This document shows, in pieces, positions 495-39,269 of a stretch of 39,269 bases of DNA (positions within the stretch are counted from its first letter, which is position 1; every line of letters starts with the position of its first letter). Below the pieces are notes generated by a model that saw only the letters and a list, made by a program, of their open reading frames with translations, was not told where the DNA came from and ran no database searches. The translations under genes and the position numbers were made by a program. Where the stretch lies: the IMG/VR virus record IMGVR_UViG_3300036835_000531, positions 1 through 39,269 of that record; one strand, given 5' to 3'. Source of the DNA: a virus.

Positions 495-1640
495 ATGAGC
501 ATCTATCGCACGACCGTCGGCACGTGGGGTTTCCGATTTCTCTACATGGGCGAGCTCTACAAGCGCCAAGGCTTCGAGAGCAAGCGGGCGGCGCAAGCCG
601 CCGAGTCGACGCGGCGCCTGGAGGTCGACGCGCGCGGTCATCGGGGGACTGGCTGGACTGGGACCCCCGCCCTGGCGGAGTGGGCGGGGCTCTGGTTCCA
701 GCGGATCGCGCCCCATATGGCGCCGAACACGCTGCAGGCCTACCGCCAGAACTTCACCCACCACCTGCTGCCGTATCTCGGGGCCATTCCCCTCGAGCAC
801 CTGACGCGCAGCCGGATCCGCGATCGCCTGCTCGAATGCCGCGTGCGGAGCCAGCTCGCGCCGGGAACGGTGCTGGCGATCCGCACGGCGCTGTCAGCGT
901 GCTTGACGGATGCCGTCGAGGCCGGGCACCTGGCCGTGAATCCCTGCCAGAAGATGGGGCGCGGCCAGCGCCGCCGTGGTGAGGCCACGCCGACCACCAC
1001 GACCGAGGAGGTCGCGCACCCGATGGACGAGGCCGAGCGCGACCGCTTCCTCGCCGCCGCCGACCGCCGCCCGCACTGGACCGCCTACATGTGGATCCAG
1101 GCCAAGGCCGGCGCCCGCCCGGCGGAGACCCTCGCCCTGCGCCTCGAGGATATCGACTGGGCCGCCGGCACCGCCCGCCTCTGGCAGCAGTGGACCGGGC
1201 GGCGGCTACGCCCGCTCAAGACGTACGAGGCGCGCACGGTCGACCTGACGCCCGGGGTGCTCGAACGCCTGGAGGCCTACGTGGCGACCCTGCCGCCACG
1301 GCTGCGCGCGGCCGGGTGGCTCTTTGCCGGCACGAACAACCCGTCCCTGCCACGCAACGGGTCGATGCCGCGCAAGACGTTCATGGCCCTGCAGCGCGAG
1401 GCGGGACTCTCCGGGTTCCGGCTCTATGATCTCCGCCACACGTTTGCCTCGCTGCTCCTGAGCCGCAACACCCCGGCGCTATACGTCAGCAAGCAGCTCG
1501 GCCACAAGAGCCTGCTCACCACGCTCCGCGTCTACGCGCACTGGATCCCGGATACGGACTCGCGGAAATGGGTGGAGCAGGATGGCACGCGAAAAATTGT
1601 ACCGTTGGTCGACCACCGCAATAGTGAGAAAACCGCGTAA
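495..1640 (+). CDS. int: Tyrosine-family site-specific integrase
   Basis: A 381-residue phage integrase that would insert and excise the circular genome at attP/attB. Residues 1-48 resemble the small arm-binding domain. Residues 58-155 form the SAM-like core-binding domain (TLQAYRQNFTHHLLPYLG). Residues 175-360 are the catalytic domain with R208 (GARPAET), K242, R314-H315 (YDLRHTFASLLL), H337 (LGHKS) and the nucleophile Y347 (LRVYAHW). The usual first His of the HxxR box is Tyr (Y311). An AGGAGG lies 11 bases before the ATG. It follows the repressor on the same strand, so the two may be co-transcribed in the lysogen. A strand-exchange role follows from the family; the attachment site is not proven. 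Confidence 0.95.
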   Translation: MSIYRTTVGTWGFRFLYMGELYKRQGFESKRAAQAAESTRRLEVDARGHRGTGWTGTPALAEWAGLWFQRIAPHMAPNTLQAYRQNFTHHLLPYLGAIPLEHLTRSRIRDRLLECRVRSQLAPGTVLAIRTALSACLTDAVEAGHLAVNPCQKMGRGQRRRGEATPTTTTEEVAHPMDEAERDRFLAAADRRPHWTAYMWIQAKAGARPAETLALRLEDIDWAAGTARLWQQWTGRRLRPLKTYEARTVDLTPGVLERLEAYVATLPPRLRAAGWLFAGTNNPSLPRNGSMPRKTFMALQREAGLSGFRLYDLRHTFASLLLSRNTPALYVSKQLGHKSLLTTLRVYAHWIPDTDSRKWVEQDGTRKIVPLVDHRNSEKTA

Positions 1641-29087: not shown

Positions 29088-29370
29088 GCGGCTTCCACCC
29101 GAGCCACTGGCCGAGCAGCTCGGCGGCGCGAAGCTGGACCGAGCGGTCCGCGTCGCTCATCGCGCCCTGCACCACTTCGAACGCCCGCTGCACGTGGGCG
29201 AATGTGAGGCCACCTCGCCGGTACATGTCGTCGAGGCGGGCATCGCCGGTGACGATGATTTCCGCCTGACGCACGCGTAGCATAGGCCTGACTTTTCGAG
29301 GCTTTCGGACACCTGTCTTATGTATATCCTCAATCGGCGCGGCCGAAGCCGCCGGATCTGTGTCAGCCAC
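28912..29370 (-). CDS. Probable terminase small subunit
   Basis: A 152-residue protein directly before terL. The core is helical: LRVRQAEIIVTGDARLDDMY, RRGGLTFAHVQRAFEVV, and SVQLRAAELLGQWLGWKPRE. Position, size and a helical DNA-binding-like core fit a small terminase, which recognises phage DNA and recruits the large subunit; similarity is not strong enough for certainty. The GTG at 29370 is chosen because AGGTGA stands five bases upstream; an ATG at 29415 lacks a good site. The last 58 codons lie inside the terL coding sequence in a different frame, so its C-terminus may be under odd constraint. Confidence 0.65.
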   Translation of the reverse strand: MADTDPAASAAPIEDIHKTGVRKPRKVRPMLRVRQAEIIVTGDARLDDMYRRGGLTFAHVQRAFEVVQGAMSDADRSVQLRAAELLGQWLGWKPRERDSTPDRVAAVSVTLVSAAGADAGTQLPRGRLEVHLAGNGHAAGIPPAGEREQSSD

Positions 29371-29659
29371 GGCCCTCACCTTTTCGCTTGACAACCAGGA
29401 GGGGGAAGAGGTCATACAGCCGGTCCATATCCTGCTCGGTCAGCACGCGCGTGAGGCGCCGCGACGGCCAGTGATGCACGTAGGTGGGCTCGCTGAACCA
29501 CGCGGGGTGCCGGTAGAGGACCTTGCGGATGGTGCCCGGGGCGCGCAGCAGGCGGAGCGAGGCGGCCTGCACCGTGTAGAGGCGGTCGCCCGGGGCGCGC
29601 TCGGGCACCAGCTCGGTGCGCGTGGCGCCCTGCTTGACGCGGCCGCTGAGCTTCGTCAC
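29363..29659 (-). CDS. Small basic protein before terminase (possible DNA-binding)
   Basis: A 98-residue basic protein. Its middle YTVQAASLRLLRAPGTIRKV then LYRHPAWFSEP reads like a helix-turn-helix, and its end has RRLTRVLTEQDMDRLYDLFP. This could be a DNA-binding packaging accessory. It starts at GTG 29659, overlapping the stop of the holin-like gene (GTGA), and its end overlaps the terminase small-subunit start by eight bases. Not recognised as a known family. Confidence 0.55.
   Translation of the reverse strand: MTKLSGRVKQGATRTELVPERAPGDRLYTVQAASLRLLRAPGTIRKVLYRHPAWFSEPTYVHHWPSRRLTRVLTEQDMDRLYDLFPLLVVKRKGEGRG
29381..29394 (+). promoter_or_regulatory. Distant exact copy of the 14-bp switch motif
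   Basis: TTTTCGCTTGACAA lies antisense within the late operon, at the end of the small basic gene just upstream of the terminase small-subunit start. It contains TTGACA, but no good -10 box follows (nearest GTCATA at 17 bases). It could be a repressor-binding site within the late operon or an antisense promoter. Confidence 0.4.
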
Positions 29660-30316: not shown

Positions 30317-30439
30317 TCAGCCGTTGAAACTCAACCCGTACTCCCACGGCGGTTCCGCCCAGCGCAACGGAGCATCGCCCGCGCGCCCGATCAGCGGGTT
30401 CTGAAGCGCAGCGTGCTGCAAGTCGTTCAGCGGATTCAT
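30317..30439 (-). CDS. 40-residue microprotein
   Basis: A very small gene coding MNPLNDLQHAALQNPLIGRA then GDAPLRWAEPPWEYGLSFNG. Support comes from GGAGGTG four to five bases before the ATG and an ATGA overlap with the stop of the 449-residue gene, the same coupling used throughout this operon. It fills what would otherwise be a 128-base gap. The Trp/Pro-rich second half could be a binding peptide. Function unknown. Confidence 0.55.
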   Translation of the reverse strand: MNPLNDLQHAALQNPLIGRAGDAPLRWAEPPWEYGLSFNG

Positions 30440-31785
30440 GGCACCTCCACGAAGCGCCGCGTCGAGCCATCCGGCGCGGTGACGGTCCATGTGGGCTGAC
30501 TCGGCGGCGGCGTCGGCTCACTGCCATTGACTAGGAGCTGCGCAGGCACCTTGACAAGGAGGGCATCGAGGCGGTCGCCGCCGAGATTCGTGGTCCACAG
30601 GAAATACTCGCCGGTCACATCGACGTTGCCCTTGGGCAGCTTGGCGTAGTCGTCGCTGCCGCCGCCCGGCGCGTCGAGATCGGTGAGCACCGGGGCCACC
30701 ACGAGCACCTCGAGGCTGCCGTCGAGACGGAAGGCGATCACCTCGTTGTTGCGCGGCGCCGCCGTGCGACTGGCGCCGGAGCCGAGCACGTACTGCCCGT
30801 CCGGCGCCTCGCCGCGCGCGTTGCAGTGCGAGAGATGCCCCAGCTGCGCGTCCCAGGACGGCGTGTCGTACACGAGCCGACCCTGCGGCGCGGCCGCCGG
30901 ATCGAACATCCACAGGCGAAACGCACTCGGCTGCGCGTTCCAGTTATCGGCCGCGACCATGTAGCCGTAGCCGTTGTCCGAGTGCCCAGCCGCGCCCTCC
31001 TCGTCGAGGATCACGCGCGGCTCGCCGGCGCCGCCCACGGCGTAGATCAGGTTGTCCTCGCCGTTGCGCCCGTCGAGGTTGTCCTTGGTGAGGAGCCACG
31101 CGCCCGCCTGATCGATCTGGCACTCGTCGTAGGCCCCGCGCCGCGGGTATTCGCGCCAGGGCTGCGGATCGCCCTCGAGGACCACGACGCTCGCCTCGGG
31201 CTGGTAGGTCGTCCCATCCTTGAGCGTCGCCGAGTGCACGGCATCGGTGGCGGCGGTGTGCCACTGCCATAGCACCTTGCCCGGGCGGAACGCGGCCACA
31301 TCGACCACGGTCCAGACAGTCGCGGGCCCGAGCCCCTGCACCAGCGGCCCCACGTCGACGCGATACAGGCGCGTGAGATCCGAGGCGTAGAGAATCGTCG
31401 GCCACTGCGCCGACCAGTACCAGCCCTCGCCGGTGCTCCACGACAGCGCGTGCTCGGGCGGGAAGATGGGCCCCAGCGGCGTGACCTGGTCGGTGGCCTT
31501 GTCGACCGTCCAGAGGCTCGGCCCCTGGCCGCCGCGGGTGCGGTCGGCGCAGAGGAACGCGAGCAGCACCGGCTGTCCGACATGGGCGTTGAGCGCGCGC
31601 CAGTACGAGTACCCCGTGGGGTTCAGCGCATCGGCGCCGCCCATGTCGCGGCCGTTGGTGAGGCGGATGCCGGTGGTGCCGTAGGGCGCCGGGAAGCTGA
31701 AGGGGCCGCGATCGGGGAGGGTGAAGCGCACGGGCGACCGGACCTGGGTGGACGAAGCGAGCTCGAGAAAGCCGCCGGGATTCAC
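30436..31785 (-). CDS. Beta-propeller-like protein, first late gene
   Basis: A 449-residue protein with repeated strand-rich blades and Trp/Asp turns (GPSLWTVDKATDQVTPLGP; TILYASDLTRLYRVDVG; EVIAFRLDGSLEVLVVAPVL; GEYFLWTTNLGGDRLDALL), like TolB/WD-type or sugar-lyase-associated propellers. Segments WDAQLGHLSHCNARG and GGGSDDYAKLPKGNVDVTGE look conserved. It has no signal peptide. Residues 425-449 carry a Pro-rich hinge and a short tail. It could be a virion appendage binding or degrading surface glycan, or a cargo gene; neither is proven. The start is GTG 31785 with a weak upstream site. Confidence 0.6.
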   Translation of the reverse strand: MNPGGFLELASSTQVRSPVRFTLPDRGPFSFPAPYGTTGIRLTNGRDMGGADALNPTGYSYWRALNAHVGQPVLLAFLCADRTRGGQGPSLWTVDKATDQVTPLGPIFPPEHALSWSTGEGWYWSAQWPTILYASDLTRLYRVDVGPLVQGLGPATVWTVVDVAAFRPGKVLWQWHTAATDAVHSATLKDGTTYQPEASVVVLEGDPQPWREYPRRGAYDECQIDQAGAWLLTKDNLDGRNGEDNLIYAVGGAGEPRVILDEEGAAGHSDNGYGYMVAADNWNAQPSAFRLWMFDPAAAPQGRLVYDTPSWDAQLGHLSHCNARGEAPDGQYVLGSGASRTAAPRNNEVIAFRLDGSLEVLVVAPVLTDLDAPGGGSDDYAKLPKGNVDVTGEYFLWTTNLGGDRLDALLVKVPAQLLVNGSEPTPPPSQPTWTVTAPDGSTRRFVEVP

Positions 31786-31813
31786 GGGGCGTCACCGGCC
31801 CGGCATTTTGTGC

Positions 31814-31841
31814 TTGACACCTTTTCTATCTTTGCTACCAT
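31814..31841 (+). promoter_or_regulatory. Promoter of the plus-strand zinc/RHH operon
   Basis: TTGACA at 31814-31819, a 16-base spacer rich in T, and TACCAT at 31836-31841 (four of six matches to TATAAT). It lies in the 98-base gap between the divergent propeller and zinc-ribbon genes and reads toward 31884. The -35 box is embedded in GCTTGACA, a core shared with motifs at 29381 and 38956. Confidence 0.6.
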
Positions 31842-31883
31842 TGGCGCCACAGCAACCAGACGGCGCGAGGGAGGCCCGACCCC

Positions 31884-32087
31884 ATGGATGCCTACTACAT
31901 CACGATCGAGGACGCCTGCAGCGAGGGCGACACGCACGAGGTGGCGCGCTACGAGTGCGGCCGCTGCGGCGGGTGGTACTTCGACTGCCCGGCGTGCGGG
32001 CCTCGGCTGCCCTGCCCCGCCTGCGAGGCGGCGGCGGAGGCCTCGCGGGACGACGCGACCGCGATGCTGGCACCGACGGAGGCCTGA
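31884..32087 (+). CDS. Small zinc-ribbon protein, first of plus operon
   Basis: A 67-residue acidic protein with six Cys as CGRC, CPAC and CPAC (residues about 25-47), enough for one or two zinc knuckles. Preceded by GGGAGG nine bases before the ATG. It is the first gene of a four-gene plus-strand operon that opposes both flanking minus-strand operons. Such small zinc proteins often modulate transcription in phages, but the function here is unknown. Confidence 0.65.
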   Translation: MDAYYITIEDACSEGDTHEVARYECGRCGGWYFDCPACGPRLPCPACEAAAEASRDDATAMLAPTEA

Positions 32088-32090
32088 GCG

Positions 32091-32312
32091 ATGGCGACGC
32101 ATCTGGAGCGGCTGATCGATCGCGTGGGCGAGGGCACGCTGACCACGGCGGTGAGTGTGGCGATCGAGCGCATCGCCGAGGAGATCGCCAAGGACGCGCT
32201 CAACGACGAGGAGTTCCGGCAGGACCTGCGGACGATGGTCCGCGCGCGCTCCCGGGCGATCGTGGACCGGCTGCTGCGCGAGCAGGCGTCGAGCGCCTCC
32301 GAGGAGGGCTGA
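32091..32312 (+). CDS. Small all-helical charged protein
   Basis: A 73-residue protein, almost entirely charged helix: HLERLIDRVGEGTLTTAVSV, AIERIAEEIAKDALNDEEF, and RTMVRARSRAIVDRLLREQ. No membrane segment or family recognised. GGAGG about nine bases upstream. It begins three bases after the stop of the zinc-ribbon gene, so it is co-translated with it. Confidence 0.6.
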   Translation: MATHLERLIDRVGEGTLTTAVSVAIERIAEEIAKDALNDEEFRQDLRTMVRARSRAIVDRLLREQASSASEEG

Positions 32313-32315
32313 GCG

Positions 32316-32504
32316 ATGCCCGGCCACCTGCTGGAAGCGCTCCGCCGGCTGCGGACGCCGCCCCGGTGGTGGCGCGCCTGCCGGACGTGTGGGTACCGCT
32401 ACACGGGCGGCCGGTGCCGCCGCTGCCTCACGCCGGTCTGCGAGGCCTGCGCCGGGAAGGCCACGCACCGGATCTGCCCGGCGTGCCGGGCGCAGGAGGG
32501 CTGA
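32316..32504 (+). CDS. Small Cys-rich zinc-finger protein
   Basis: A 62-residue basic protein with four CxxC pairs: CRTC, CRRC, CEAC and CPAC, typical of double zinc ribbons in small rubredoxin- or B-box-like proteins. The N-terminus is Arg-rich (LLEALRRLRTPPRWWR) and could bind nucleic acid. GAGGAGG is placed before the ATG. Third gene of the plus operon. Function unknown. Confidence 0.65.
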   Translation: MPGHLLEALRRLRTPPRWWRACRTCGYRYTGGRCRRCLTPVCEACAGKATHRICPACRAQEG

Positions 32505-32507
32505 GCC

Positions 32508-32687
32508 GTGGCGGTGCTGACCCTCCGCCTCGACGAGGCGCTCCACGCCATCGCGCGCATCGCGGCCGCCGAGCGCGGCCAGTCGCTGCAGGCGTGGCTG
32601 GTGGACGCGGTCAGGCTCGCGCTCGATGATCAGGCCTCCCAGCCCGGCGGCCGGGCCACGCGGGCGGCGATGGAGGGGCAGGCGTGA
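32508..32687 (+). CDS. Ribbon-helix-helix (Arc/CopG-like) DNA-binding protein
   Basis: A 59-residue protein starting at GTG 32508, with GGAGGG nine bases upstream. The fold is clear: strand VLTLRLDEAL, helix HAIARIAAAERGQ, turn SL, helix QAWLVDAVRLALDD. These are the lengths and hydrophobic spacing of Arc/CopG/MetJ repressors, which bind operators as dimers. Being last in the plus operon, it probably regulates that operon or a neighbouring one. Its TGA (32685-32687) abuts the reversed stop of the early operon. Confidence 0.7.
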   Translation: MAVLTLRLDEALHAIARIAAAERGQSLQAWLVDAVRLALDDQASQPGGRATRAAMEGQA

Positions 32688-33428
32688 CTAACCAAGGACG
32701 GAAACAAGGCCTCGTCCCGCACAGGTCGGGCATTGCGCATACCTCCAGGTCATGGCTGGCGCGGTCGTGGCTGGTGGCGCGGAGGGTAAAGCGGGCGGCG
32801 GGGGCGCCACGGCAGTCATCGGCGCTGGGGTTTGGGGCTGGGATTCCAGCGTCTCGATTGGGGCCGGCTGGTCCCGCTCGGTATGCGTGCGGTTGCGCAC
32901 CTCGATCTTCGTGTCGCGCGCCTTTTTGATGCGCGCGGCGAAGCCTTCGTAATCTCCCGCCCGGGCCGCCTGCCAGAGTTCGCGAAAATCCACGCAGGCG
33001 TCCACACGATTCTCGAAATCGGACACGACGAAGTACTGGTAGTGCCCGAGGAGGGCATCGCGGTCGTCGTTCTGCCAGCCGTTACTGCTATGGAGGCGCC
33101 AGAGGGATTGGCCGATCTGGTCAGCGTGGGCGGCGGCCGTGGGCCAGTCGTTGCCCGCAAAGCAGAGCTTGGCGAACTCGGTGACTCTGTACTCCCCGCG
33201 GTCGGCGGGCTCAATCAGCCCGAAGGCAAGCGCACTGGTGCGATACCGCGAGGTGCCTTGGCCGCTGTTCTTCCATCCGTTGGCGAGGGCGGCGTCGTAC
33301 ATCGTGAACGAGCCTTTGTGGCGGCGATAGATCTTCTCCGTTCGCACGAGCGTGGGCCCGAAGTTGTTGTTGGGGCCGCGCTCGAGTTCGATCGTTTCCG
33401 GCCGTTTGGTGTCGAGCTGGGTAGACAT
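32688..33428 (-). CDS. Winged-helix-like protein with C-terminal Cys pair
   Basis: A 246-residue protein, last of the early operon. The N-terminal region (residues 1-130) has KGSFTMYDAALANGWKNSGQ, then RYRTSALAFGLIEPADRGEY RVTEF-like spacing seen in winged-helix domains of phage and DUF5343-like proteins. The middle is helical and acidic, then a Pro-rich linker (about 190-225), then AQCPTCAGRG, a single CxxC that may bind zinc. The ATG at 33428 is preferred over a GTG at 33452. Probably a DNA-binding or regulatory early protein; not assigned to a family with confidence. Confidence 0.55.
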   Translation of the reverse strand: MSTQLDTKRPETIELERGPNNNFGPTLVRTEKIYRRHKGSFTMYDAALANGWKNSGQGTSRYRTSALAFGLIEPADRGEYRVTEFAKLCFAGNDWPTAAAHADQIGQSLWRLHSSNGWQNDDRDALLGHYQYFVVSDFENRVDACVDFRELWQAARAGDYEGFAARIKKARDTKIEVRNRTHTERDQPAPIETLESQPQTPAPMTAVAPPPPALPSAPPATTAPAMTWRYAQCPTCAGRGLVSVLG

Positions 33429-33458
33429 GTGGGGACGTTCCTTTCCTGTCACGTGGGG

Positions 33459-34004
33459 TTAGGGTTGCCCCGACCAAGCGTGCGCCCACTTCAACAGCGC
33501 CGCACGGGCGCGGTTGACACGGGCCATGTCGGCCGCCACGCCGCCTCTGTCAGGGTGGTGCACACGCGCCAGCGCCTTGAAGCCTGACTCCACCAGTTGA
33601 CAGGCCAGTTCACGCAGGCGCGCGCGCTCGGCCCTGGTGACGCCGGGCTCGCGCGTGGCCGGACGCCGCCACGGCTTGGGCCGCGCCTTCGTGGCCTCGC
33701 GCAGACTTGAAAATAGAAACGCGTTGCGATTTTCCGGATCTGCCAGACTCATATAGAGATTTGCCGTCCGGTGAGTGAGCTTGAAGTGCTGCTTGAGCCA
33801 GGGTGTCCACTGGCCGTGGACCATCTTTCCCTTGGCCTCGGTGAGCAGCGCGCCGATGGTCCGGTAGCGCGCCAGGCTCCGGGTCTCCGCCCCGTGGAAG
33901 TCGGTTTGCACCGCCTGCAGCTGCTCCTGAATCAGCGGCACGAGGGCCGACAGCGGCCGGGGCGCGGCCACCAGCACGGGGCCGCTCGTCGACGGTGTGT
34001 TCAT
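33459..34004 (-). CDS. DUF3102-like protein with J-domain-like tail
   Basis: A 181-residue protein in two parts. Residues 40-90 match the DUF3102-like phage pattern: RYRTIGALLTEAKGKMVHGQ, WTPWLKQHF then HRTANLYMSLA, a helical domain in early phage proteins thought to bind DNA. Residues 125-175 look like the second half of a J-domain: FKALARVHHPDRGGVAADM with the HPD triad at 150-152 and a following helix. If real, it could recruit host DnaK, as lambda uses DnaJ/DnaK at its origin (inference). AGGAGG is eight bases before the ATG; ATGA overlap with rusA. Confidence 0.7.
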   Translation of the reverse strand: MNTPSTSGPVLVAAPRPLSALVPLIQEQLQAVQTDFHGAETRSLARYRTIGALLTEAKGKMVHGQWTPWLKQHFKLTHRTANLYMSLADPENRNAFLFSSLREATKARPKPWRRPATREPGVTRAERARLRELACQLVESGFKALARVHHPDRGGVAADMARVNRARAALLKWAHAWSGQP

Positions 34005-38864: not shown

Positions 38865-38926
38865 GGCCCGCCCTCCCAACTTTTCGCTTGCCAATCTTTG
38901 CCCCGTTGTGCCAATGTGCTTCACGG

Positions 38927-38962
38927 TTGACAACGGTAATACCAGGTACGTACCCTTGTCAA
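38927..38962. promoter_or_regulatory. Overlapping divergent promoters of the lysis/lysogeny switch
   Basis: Two antiparallel promoter candidates share this DNA. Plus strand: TTGACA 38927-38932 and TACCCT 38951-38956 (18-base spacing), toward the repressor. Minus strand: TTGACA 38962-38957 and TACCGT 38938-38933 (18-base spacing), toward the excisionase-like gene. The -35 boxes match fully; the -10 boxes keep only the key T, A and final T. Binding of polymerase to one should exclude the other. Confidence 0.55.
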
Positions 38963-38996
38963 GCGAAAAAGTGCCTCCGCCAATTACCCCAGGTAA
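38935..38996. promoter_or_regulatory. Three GGTA/TACC palindromes: candidate operators
   Basis: GGTAATACC (38935-38943), GGTACGTACC (38945-38954) and TTACCCCAGGTAA (38984-38996) are related palindromes, two inside the promoter spacers and one just within the start of the repressor gene. Repeated half-sites at a divergent repressor/HTH gene pair are what lambda-type operators look like. The binding protein is presumably the XRE repressor or the HTH protein. Confidence 0.5.
38956..38969 (-). promoter_or_regulatory. 14-bp motif TTTTCGCTTGACAA at the switch
   Basis: On the minus strand this 14-mer contains the -35 box of the early promoter. An identical 14-mer occurs on the plus strand at 29381-29394, and a one-mismatch copy (TTTTCGCTTGCCAA) at 38881-38894. 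The repetition suggests a protein-binding site rather than chance. Confidence 0.5.
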
Positions 38997-39269
38997 GTCG
39001 CGCGTTACGCCCGCCACCGCGGCGGCGGGCACACGGGAGTGGCTGCGCGCCTGCATGGCTCAGCGGCAGTGGAGCGTCGCCGAGCTCTCGCGTCGCGCCG
39101 GCGTTCCCGCCGCGACGATTTCCCGCATCCTCAGCGGGAAACGCGCGATGGGCCAGAACGTGGCCTTTCAGCTGAGCCGGGCCCTGGAAGAGCCGCGCGA
39201 ACTGGCCTATCCGGTGACGTCGTCAGCGCCGACGCCCCGCCCAGATCGGTCGTCGGTCGAAGTGCGAGA
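38971..39269 (+). CDS. XRE-family HTH repressor, 5' part (gene crosses the circular junction)
   Basis: This is the N-terminal part of a helix-turn-helix protein whose 3' part is at 1-398; joined, it is 189 residues from the GTG at 38971. The XRE/Cro-CI fold is clear: a first helix TREWLRACMAQRQW (about residues 21-34), then WSVAELSRRAGVPAATISRI with the turn and recognition helix, then LSGKRAM. The ATG at 39055 would remove helix 1, so the upstream GTG is preferred, although it has no Shine-Dalgarno sequence. A promoter placed at 38927-38956 would give a nearly leaderless mRNA, as for lambda cI from PRM. It is transcribed divergently from the excisionase-like gene and sits upstream of the integrase, so it is most likely the lysogeny repressor (inference). 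An in-frame ATG at 38914 is a less likely start. Confidence 0.8.
   Translation, partial: MPPPITPGKSRVTPATAAAGTREWLRACMAQRQWSVAELSRRAGVPAATISRILSGKRAMGQNVAFQLSRALEEPRELAYPVTSSAPTPRPDRSSVEVR
39143..39269. repeat. Right copy of 127-bp exact terminal repeat
   Basis: Identical to bases 1-127. It should be counted once when the genome is closed. The reading frame of the repressor continues from here into base 128 of the window. Confidence 0.95.

Follow-up and report, generated by a model that had tools for sequence, protein, structure and literature searches.

Four closely spaced small genes (g1 to g4, Table 1) lie behind one predicted promoter of host type, between the early block (replication and RusA genes) and the late block (terminase genes) of this phage, in an orientation opposite to that of both. 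All positions refer to the window, i.e., the whole stretch of 39,269 nucleotides that was analysed. The four plus-strand reading frames, the promoter and the boundaries are located as an earlier note on this DNA had described them, and its picture of a cassette encoding two proteins with multiple CxxC motifs, a helical protein and a ribbon-helix-helix (RHH) protein was borne out, as was that of a head-on meeting with the early operon, in which the TGA stop of g4 (32685-32687) directly abuts the opposing TAG (32690-32688). On the other side, the proposed divergence from the late operon stands as regards gene direction, but no good promoter for the neighbouring gene was found in the 98-bp gap, where the best candidate reached 7/12.

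Table 1. Features of the cassette, of its flanks and of the lysogeny control region (positions in the window).
Feature	Position	Strand	Remark
Tyrosine integrase	495..1640	+	PF00589, 64.6 bits
Divergent gene opening the late side, 449 aa, no family match	30436..31785	-	
Predicted promoter, TTGACA-N16-TACCAT, TG before -10 (extended -10)	31814..31841	+	
Tandem 9-mers TTTTCTATC/TTTGCTACC, possible RHH operator, not significant	31822..31839	+	in promoter spacer
g1, acidic 67-aa protein (pI 4.1) with three CxxC motifs, resembling a zinc ribbon	31884..32087	+	
g2, 73 aa, three helices predicted, no family match	32091..32312	+	
g3, basic 62-aa protein (pI 10.0) with four CxxC motifs, of the two-zinc finger type	32316..32504	+	
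g4, 59 aa, ribbon-helix-helix (HicB C-terminal / Arc type)	32508..32687	+	PF05534, 25.5 bits (cut-off 21)
Junction unit, GGAGG with stop and start	32078..32093 (g1/g2), 32303-32318, 32495-32510	+	
Last early-operon gene, converging on g4, stop codons abutting	32688..33452	-	
CI/early control region, divergent promoters and operator-like repeats	38865..39054		sequence context
14-mer TTTTCGCTTGACAA, operator-like	38881-38894, 38920-38933, 38956-38969, remote 29381-29394 (+)		CI/early region and one remote copy
CI-type HTH repressor, 161 aa	39055..39269, across the contig ends to 398	+	PF01381, 30.4 bits (cut-off 23)

Abutting convergent stops are a style of this phage, in whose other convergent junction (2304/2307) the genes are 2 nt apart; there, the genes of 1838-2304 meet the late block head-on. 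The latter are two more small plus-strand genes that follow the integrase, and one of them encodes a CxxC protein (CLRCGQVSTHPQDVAERYCGACHQFH).

By their codon usage, the four reading frames of the cassette are genuine genes. GC content at the three codon positions is about 0.65-0.83, 0.46-0.73 and 0.94-0.95, and the synonymous-codon scores of g1 to g4 stand 4.1, 5.4, 3.9 and 3.9 standard units (z) above those of dinucleotide shuffles, none of which (0/1000) reached the true score. In all four genes the true frame is the top of six by this score, with a small margin over one antisense frame in g1 (11.8 vs 11.6, the rival frame containing stops) and in g4 (14.6 vs 13.0). Gene calling with a simple program trained on this phage found g1, g2 and g4 and left out g3, which passes the synonymous-codon test and was probably missed owing to its unusual Cys and Arg content. 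Two long frames overlapping the cassette, at 31721-32629 on the plus strand and 31782-32546 on the minus strand, were discarded, being outscored on codons by the four genes. Rfam and tRNA searches gave no matches.

Every start codon of the cassette is preceded, 8-9 nt upstream, by GGAGG. Furthermore, the three internal junctions have in common a 16-nt unit, GGAGGNCTGAGCNRTG, which overlaps the stop and the start; its 12-nt core has no further exact match in the window and the unit was found in none of the related phage loci searched. As ribosome site, stop and next start are brought together in each unit, this arrangement points to a translationally coupled operon. The GC content of the cassette is 75% vs 70.7% for the genome, with a GC3 of 94-95%, and its codon use is atypical, its KL value (0.283) being higher than in 26 of 28 phage segments and lower than in the other two. 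Nevertheless, some late genes also reach this GC3 (95%), and composition alone is therefore no proof of foreign origin.

As for the products, g4 matches PF05534 above the Pfam cut-off, by which it is an RHH protein; it also comes close to PHROG 9151, annotated as “HicB-like antitoxin”. Matches of g1 and g3 to zinc-ribbon models are weak and below cut-off; the two proteins have no convincing mutual similarity, so that a duplication was not retained, nor does g3 convincingly resemble the CxxC protein encoded at 2110-2304. Comparison of g1, g3 and g4 with PDB sequences gave weak or chance matches only, the best being that of g3 to a DNA ligase zinc region (E 0.013). The structure model of g3 is of modest confidence (pLDDT 68) and found no structural match in a fold comparison, while g2, devoid of Cys, is predicted to be all-helical, with three helices (pLDDT 76), its model giving no significant structural match (E above 2 only). 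No PADLOC defence family matched any of the four proteins, and neither HicA nor another toxin family was found in g1-g3 with Pfam, PHROGs or NCBIfam.

Within 29.5-39.3 kb, no sigma70-type match was found other than the predicted cassette promoter, 0.4 being expected. Moreover, the form TTGACA-N16-18-TACCNT, a motif chosen after the fact, is present at exactly three places in the window, namely at the cassette and at the two opposed CI/early promoters; given this common form, the polymerase that serves the control genes of the phage most likely transcribes the cassette too. The score of the tandem 9-mers in the promoter spacer was equalled by 60 of 400 shuffles, which is chance level, and the motif has no exact match elsewhere in the phage; indeed, the search for RHH operators yielded candidate repeats at chance level only. 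The -35 region (31807) matches the operator-like 14-mer of the early region in 11/14 positions, six of which are the -35 hexamer itself. No intrinsic terminator was found after g4 (near 32687), in a search to which Rho-dependent termination is invisible, and transcripts reading through past g4 would thus be antisense to the early genes of 32688-34004.

Regarding the genomic context, the first 127 bases of the contig exactly equal the last 127 (positions 1-127 and 39143-39269), so that the contig is a complete phage genome of about 39.1 kb, either terminally redundant or assembled from a circle. The gene for the CI-type repressor spans the contig junction and reads rightward towards the integrase, divergent from the leftward early block (38864 to 32688), which encodes a replication initiator, a Cas4-type exonuclease and the RusA resolvase; the late block (terminase, head-tail adaptor, tail) likewise runs leftward. 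The CI/early region carries two opposed and overlapping promoter-like sites plus operator-like repeats, among which the 14-mer has six matches at up to three mismatches vs 0.49 expected, a number reached by none of 100 shuffles. Since an integrase is accompanied by a CI-type repressor with a conventional control region, the phage is, on its gene content, temperate. The cassette itself was rejected as the lysogeny switch, the repressor and the integrase being encoded elsewhere and the CI/early control region lying 7 kb away. The remote exact copy of the 14-mer falls within the 3' end of a small gene (29363-29659) just upstream of the terminase genes.

About 45 related loci were gathered by terminase, adaptor and exonuclease searches, many of them being fragments that do not cover the cassette site. 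The nearest complete relative, G001, is a 40.2-kb contig that has a 123-bp terminal repeat and whose terminase shares 67% identity with that of this phage; its genes all point one way from the early block to the terminase genes, RusA and directly after it a ParB-like gene lying between, with no opposed cassette. The cassette proteins had no match in these loci, only chance matches in phage records and none in plasmid records; a search of viral and cellular genome contigs, which required an exact eight-residue stretch and misses distant relatives, returned nothing, as did a terminase-based scan of cellular genomes for the host. With respect to presence or absence in relatives, a point raised in the earlier note, the cassette is thus missing from G001 and from other related loci. 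In G001, however, the entire RusA-terminase interval differs, so that the site is a variable region and a clean insertion is at best presumptive.

Altogether, the cassette is probably a moron-type accessory operon carried by a temperate phage, as its own promoter, opposed orientation, temperate carrier, accessory distribution and orphan genes match described moron loci. In this respect, the suggestion that it is a moron cassette acting in the lysogen gains support from its anatomy, namely the sigma70-type promoter of its own, the orientation, the temperate phage and the absence in relatives. In morons such an orientation is usual and a terminator of their own common, neither being obligatory; the failure to find an intrinsic terminator after g4 and the wholly different interval in G001 count against this reading. 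The accompanying suggestion that it controls the early-to-late transition is not supported. A lytic switch, in which the RHH and zinc proteins, or an antisense transcript running into the early operon, lower the early genes and permit late transcription, would account for a position exactly between the early and late blocks, for the convergence with the early operon with no terminator found between them, and for the presence of a member of a DNA-binding protein family. Nevertheless, no sign of RHH operators was seen at the other promoters of the phage and the sole tandem repeat at the cassette promoter is at chance level; the nearest complete relative manages without the cassette, and operator repeats occur in a CI-type control region apart from it. 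We thus regard such a switch as quite improbable. An even more elaborate possibility, a four-component module for control or host takeover in which an RHH repressor would work jointly with a helical adaptor and two proteins of zinc type, the antisense transcript also silencing the early operon, is very improbable.

A toxin-antitoxin or exclusion module, with g4 as antitoxin and autorepressor and either g3 (basic, of two-zinc type) or g2 as the toxic or exclusion partner, is rather unlikely. Indeed, g4 comes closest to HicB/Arc-type RHH domains, and a tight succession of small genes, each with a strong ribosome site, would suit such a system, but the defence and toxin searches described above were negative, the genes number four instead of a pair, and g4, with only 59 aa, lacks the N-terminal HicB domain. 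A HicAB pair in particular was rejected, as no HicA was found beside g4: the likeness is confined to the RHH part of HicB, whereas the cassette is a four-gene operon with two CxxC proteins. It is also unlikely that g1-g4 are ordinary early or delayed-early genes, inverted by chance and aiding lytic growth, with no lysogeny cassette involved. The promoter shares its form with the CI/early promoters, and the resemblance of its -35 region to the 14-mer makes control by CI/Cro conceivable; yet the genes are oriented against the other lytic genes and are missing from relatives.

Several described systems resemble the cassette or parts of it. The pid gene of Salmonella phage P22 is a moron gene opposite to its neighbours, in place of which relatives have nothing or another insert; it is a single gene of 86 aa that lies within the late region and has a Rho-independent terminator at its 3' end (PMC3573128). 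The likeness is drawn from anatomy (opposed orientation, absence or another insert in relatives), and the cassette differs in having four genes, no terminator found and a location at the early/late boundary. In ST64B, the accessory locus STMMW_20121 has its own promoter and is antisense to lytic prophage genes, its expression having been established by RNA-seq (PMC7067206); the anatomy is again alike, while expression of the cassette is predicted only. With the Arc-type phage RHH repressors (PHROG 228 and 582), g4 has in common that it is a small single-domain RHH protein of a temperate phage, but its matches to these families are weak (E 0.07-0.2) and it stands last in a four-gene operon.

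If the cassette is such an accessory operon, host RNA polymerase would transcribe it from the prophage with no dependence on lytic genes, as the strong match of the promoter to the host sigma70 type suggests. The RHH product of g4 would probably bind at or beside its own promoter and keep expression down; such autoregulation of the own operon is likely from RHH biology in general. The effectors would then be the zinc-type g1 and g3 together with the helical g2, most likely acting on proteins or nucleic acids of the host or of superinfecting phages. Accessory loci of prophages alter phage immunity and the behaviour of the host, and DNA alone does not easily reveal them. The present one looks like a known kind of locus, a prophage accessory cassette, holding genes without known relatives; otherwise nothing out of the ordinary (an uncultured phage with accessory orphan genes), it constitutes a well-delimited unit with a clear predicted promoter and four orphan proteins that could be easily cloned and tested.

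Two genes near the cassette also deserve mention. The 449-aa protein encoded at 30436-31785 matched no family and no phage homologue, and its gene is also missing at the equivalent place in G001; by eye, it could possibly be a beta-propeller. On the early side, the protein encoded at 33459-34004 on the minus strand carries a DUF3102 domain and a C-terminal stretch with HPDRGG that, by eye, resembles the J-domain motif. In a related contig (L026:1-1820) the homologue of this early gene is divergent and right beside the terminase gene, an arrangement which appears as another sign of a reshuffled early/late boundary.
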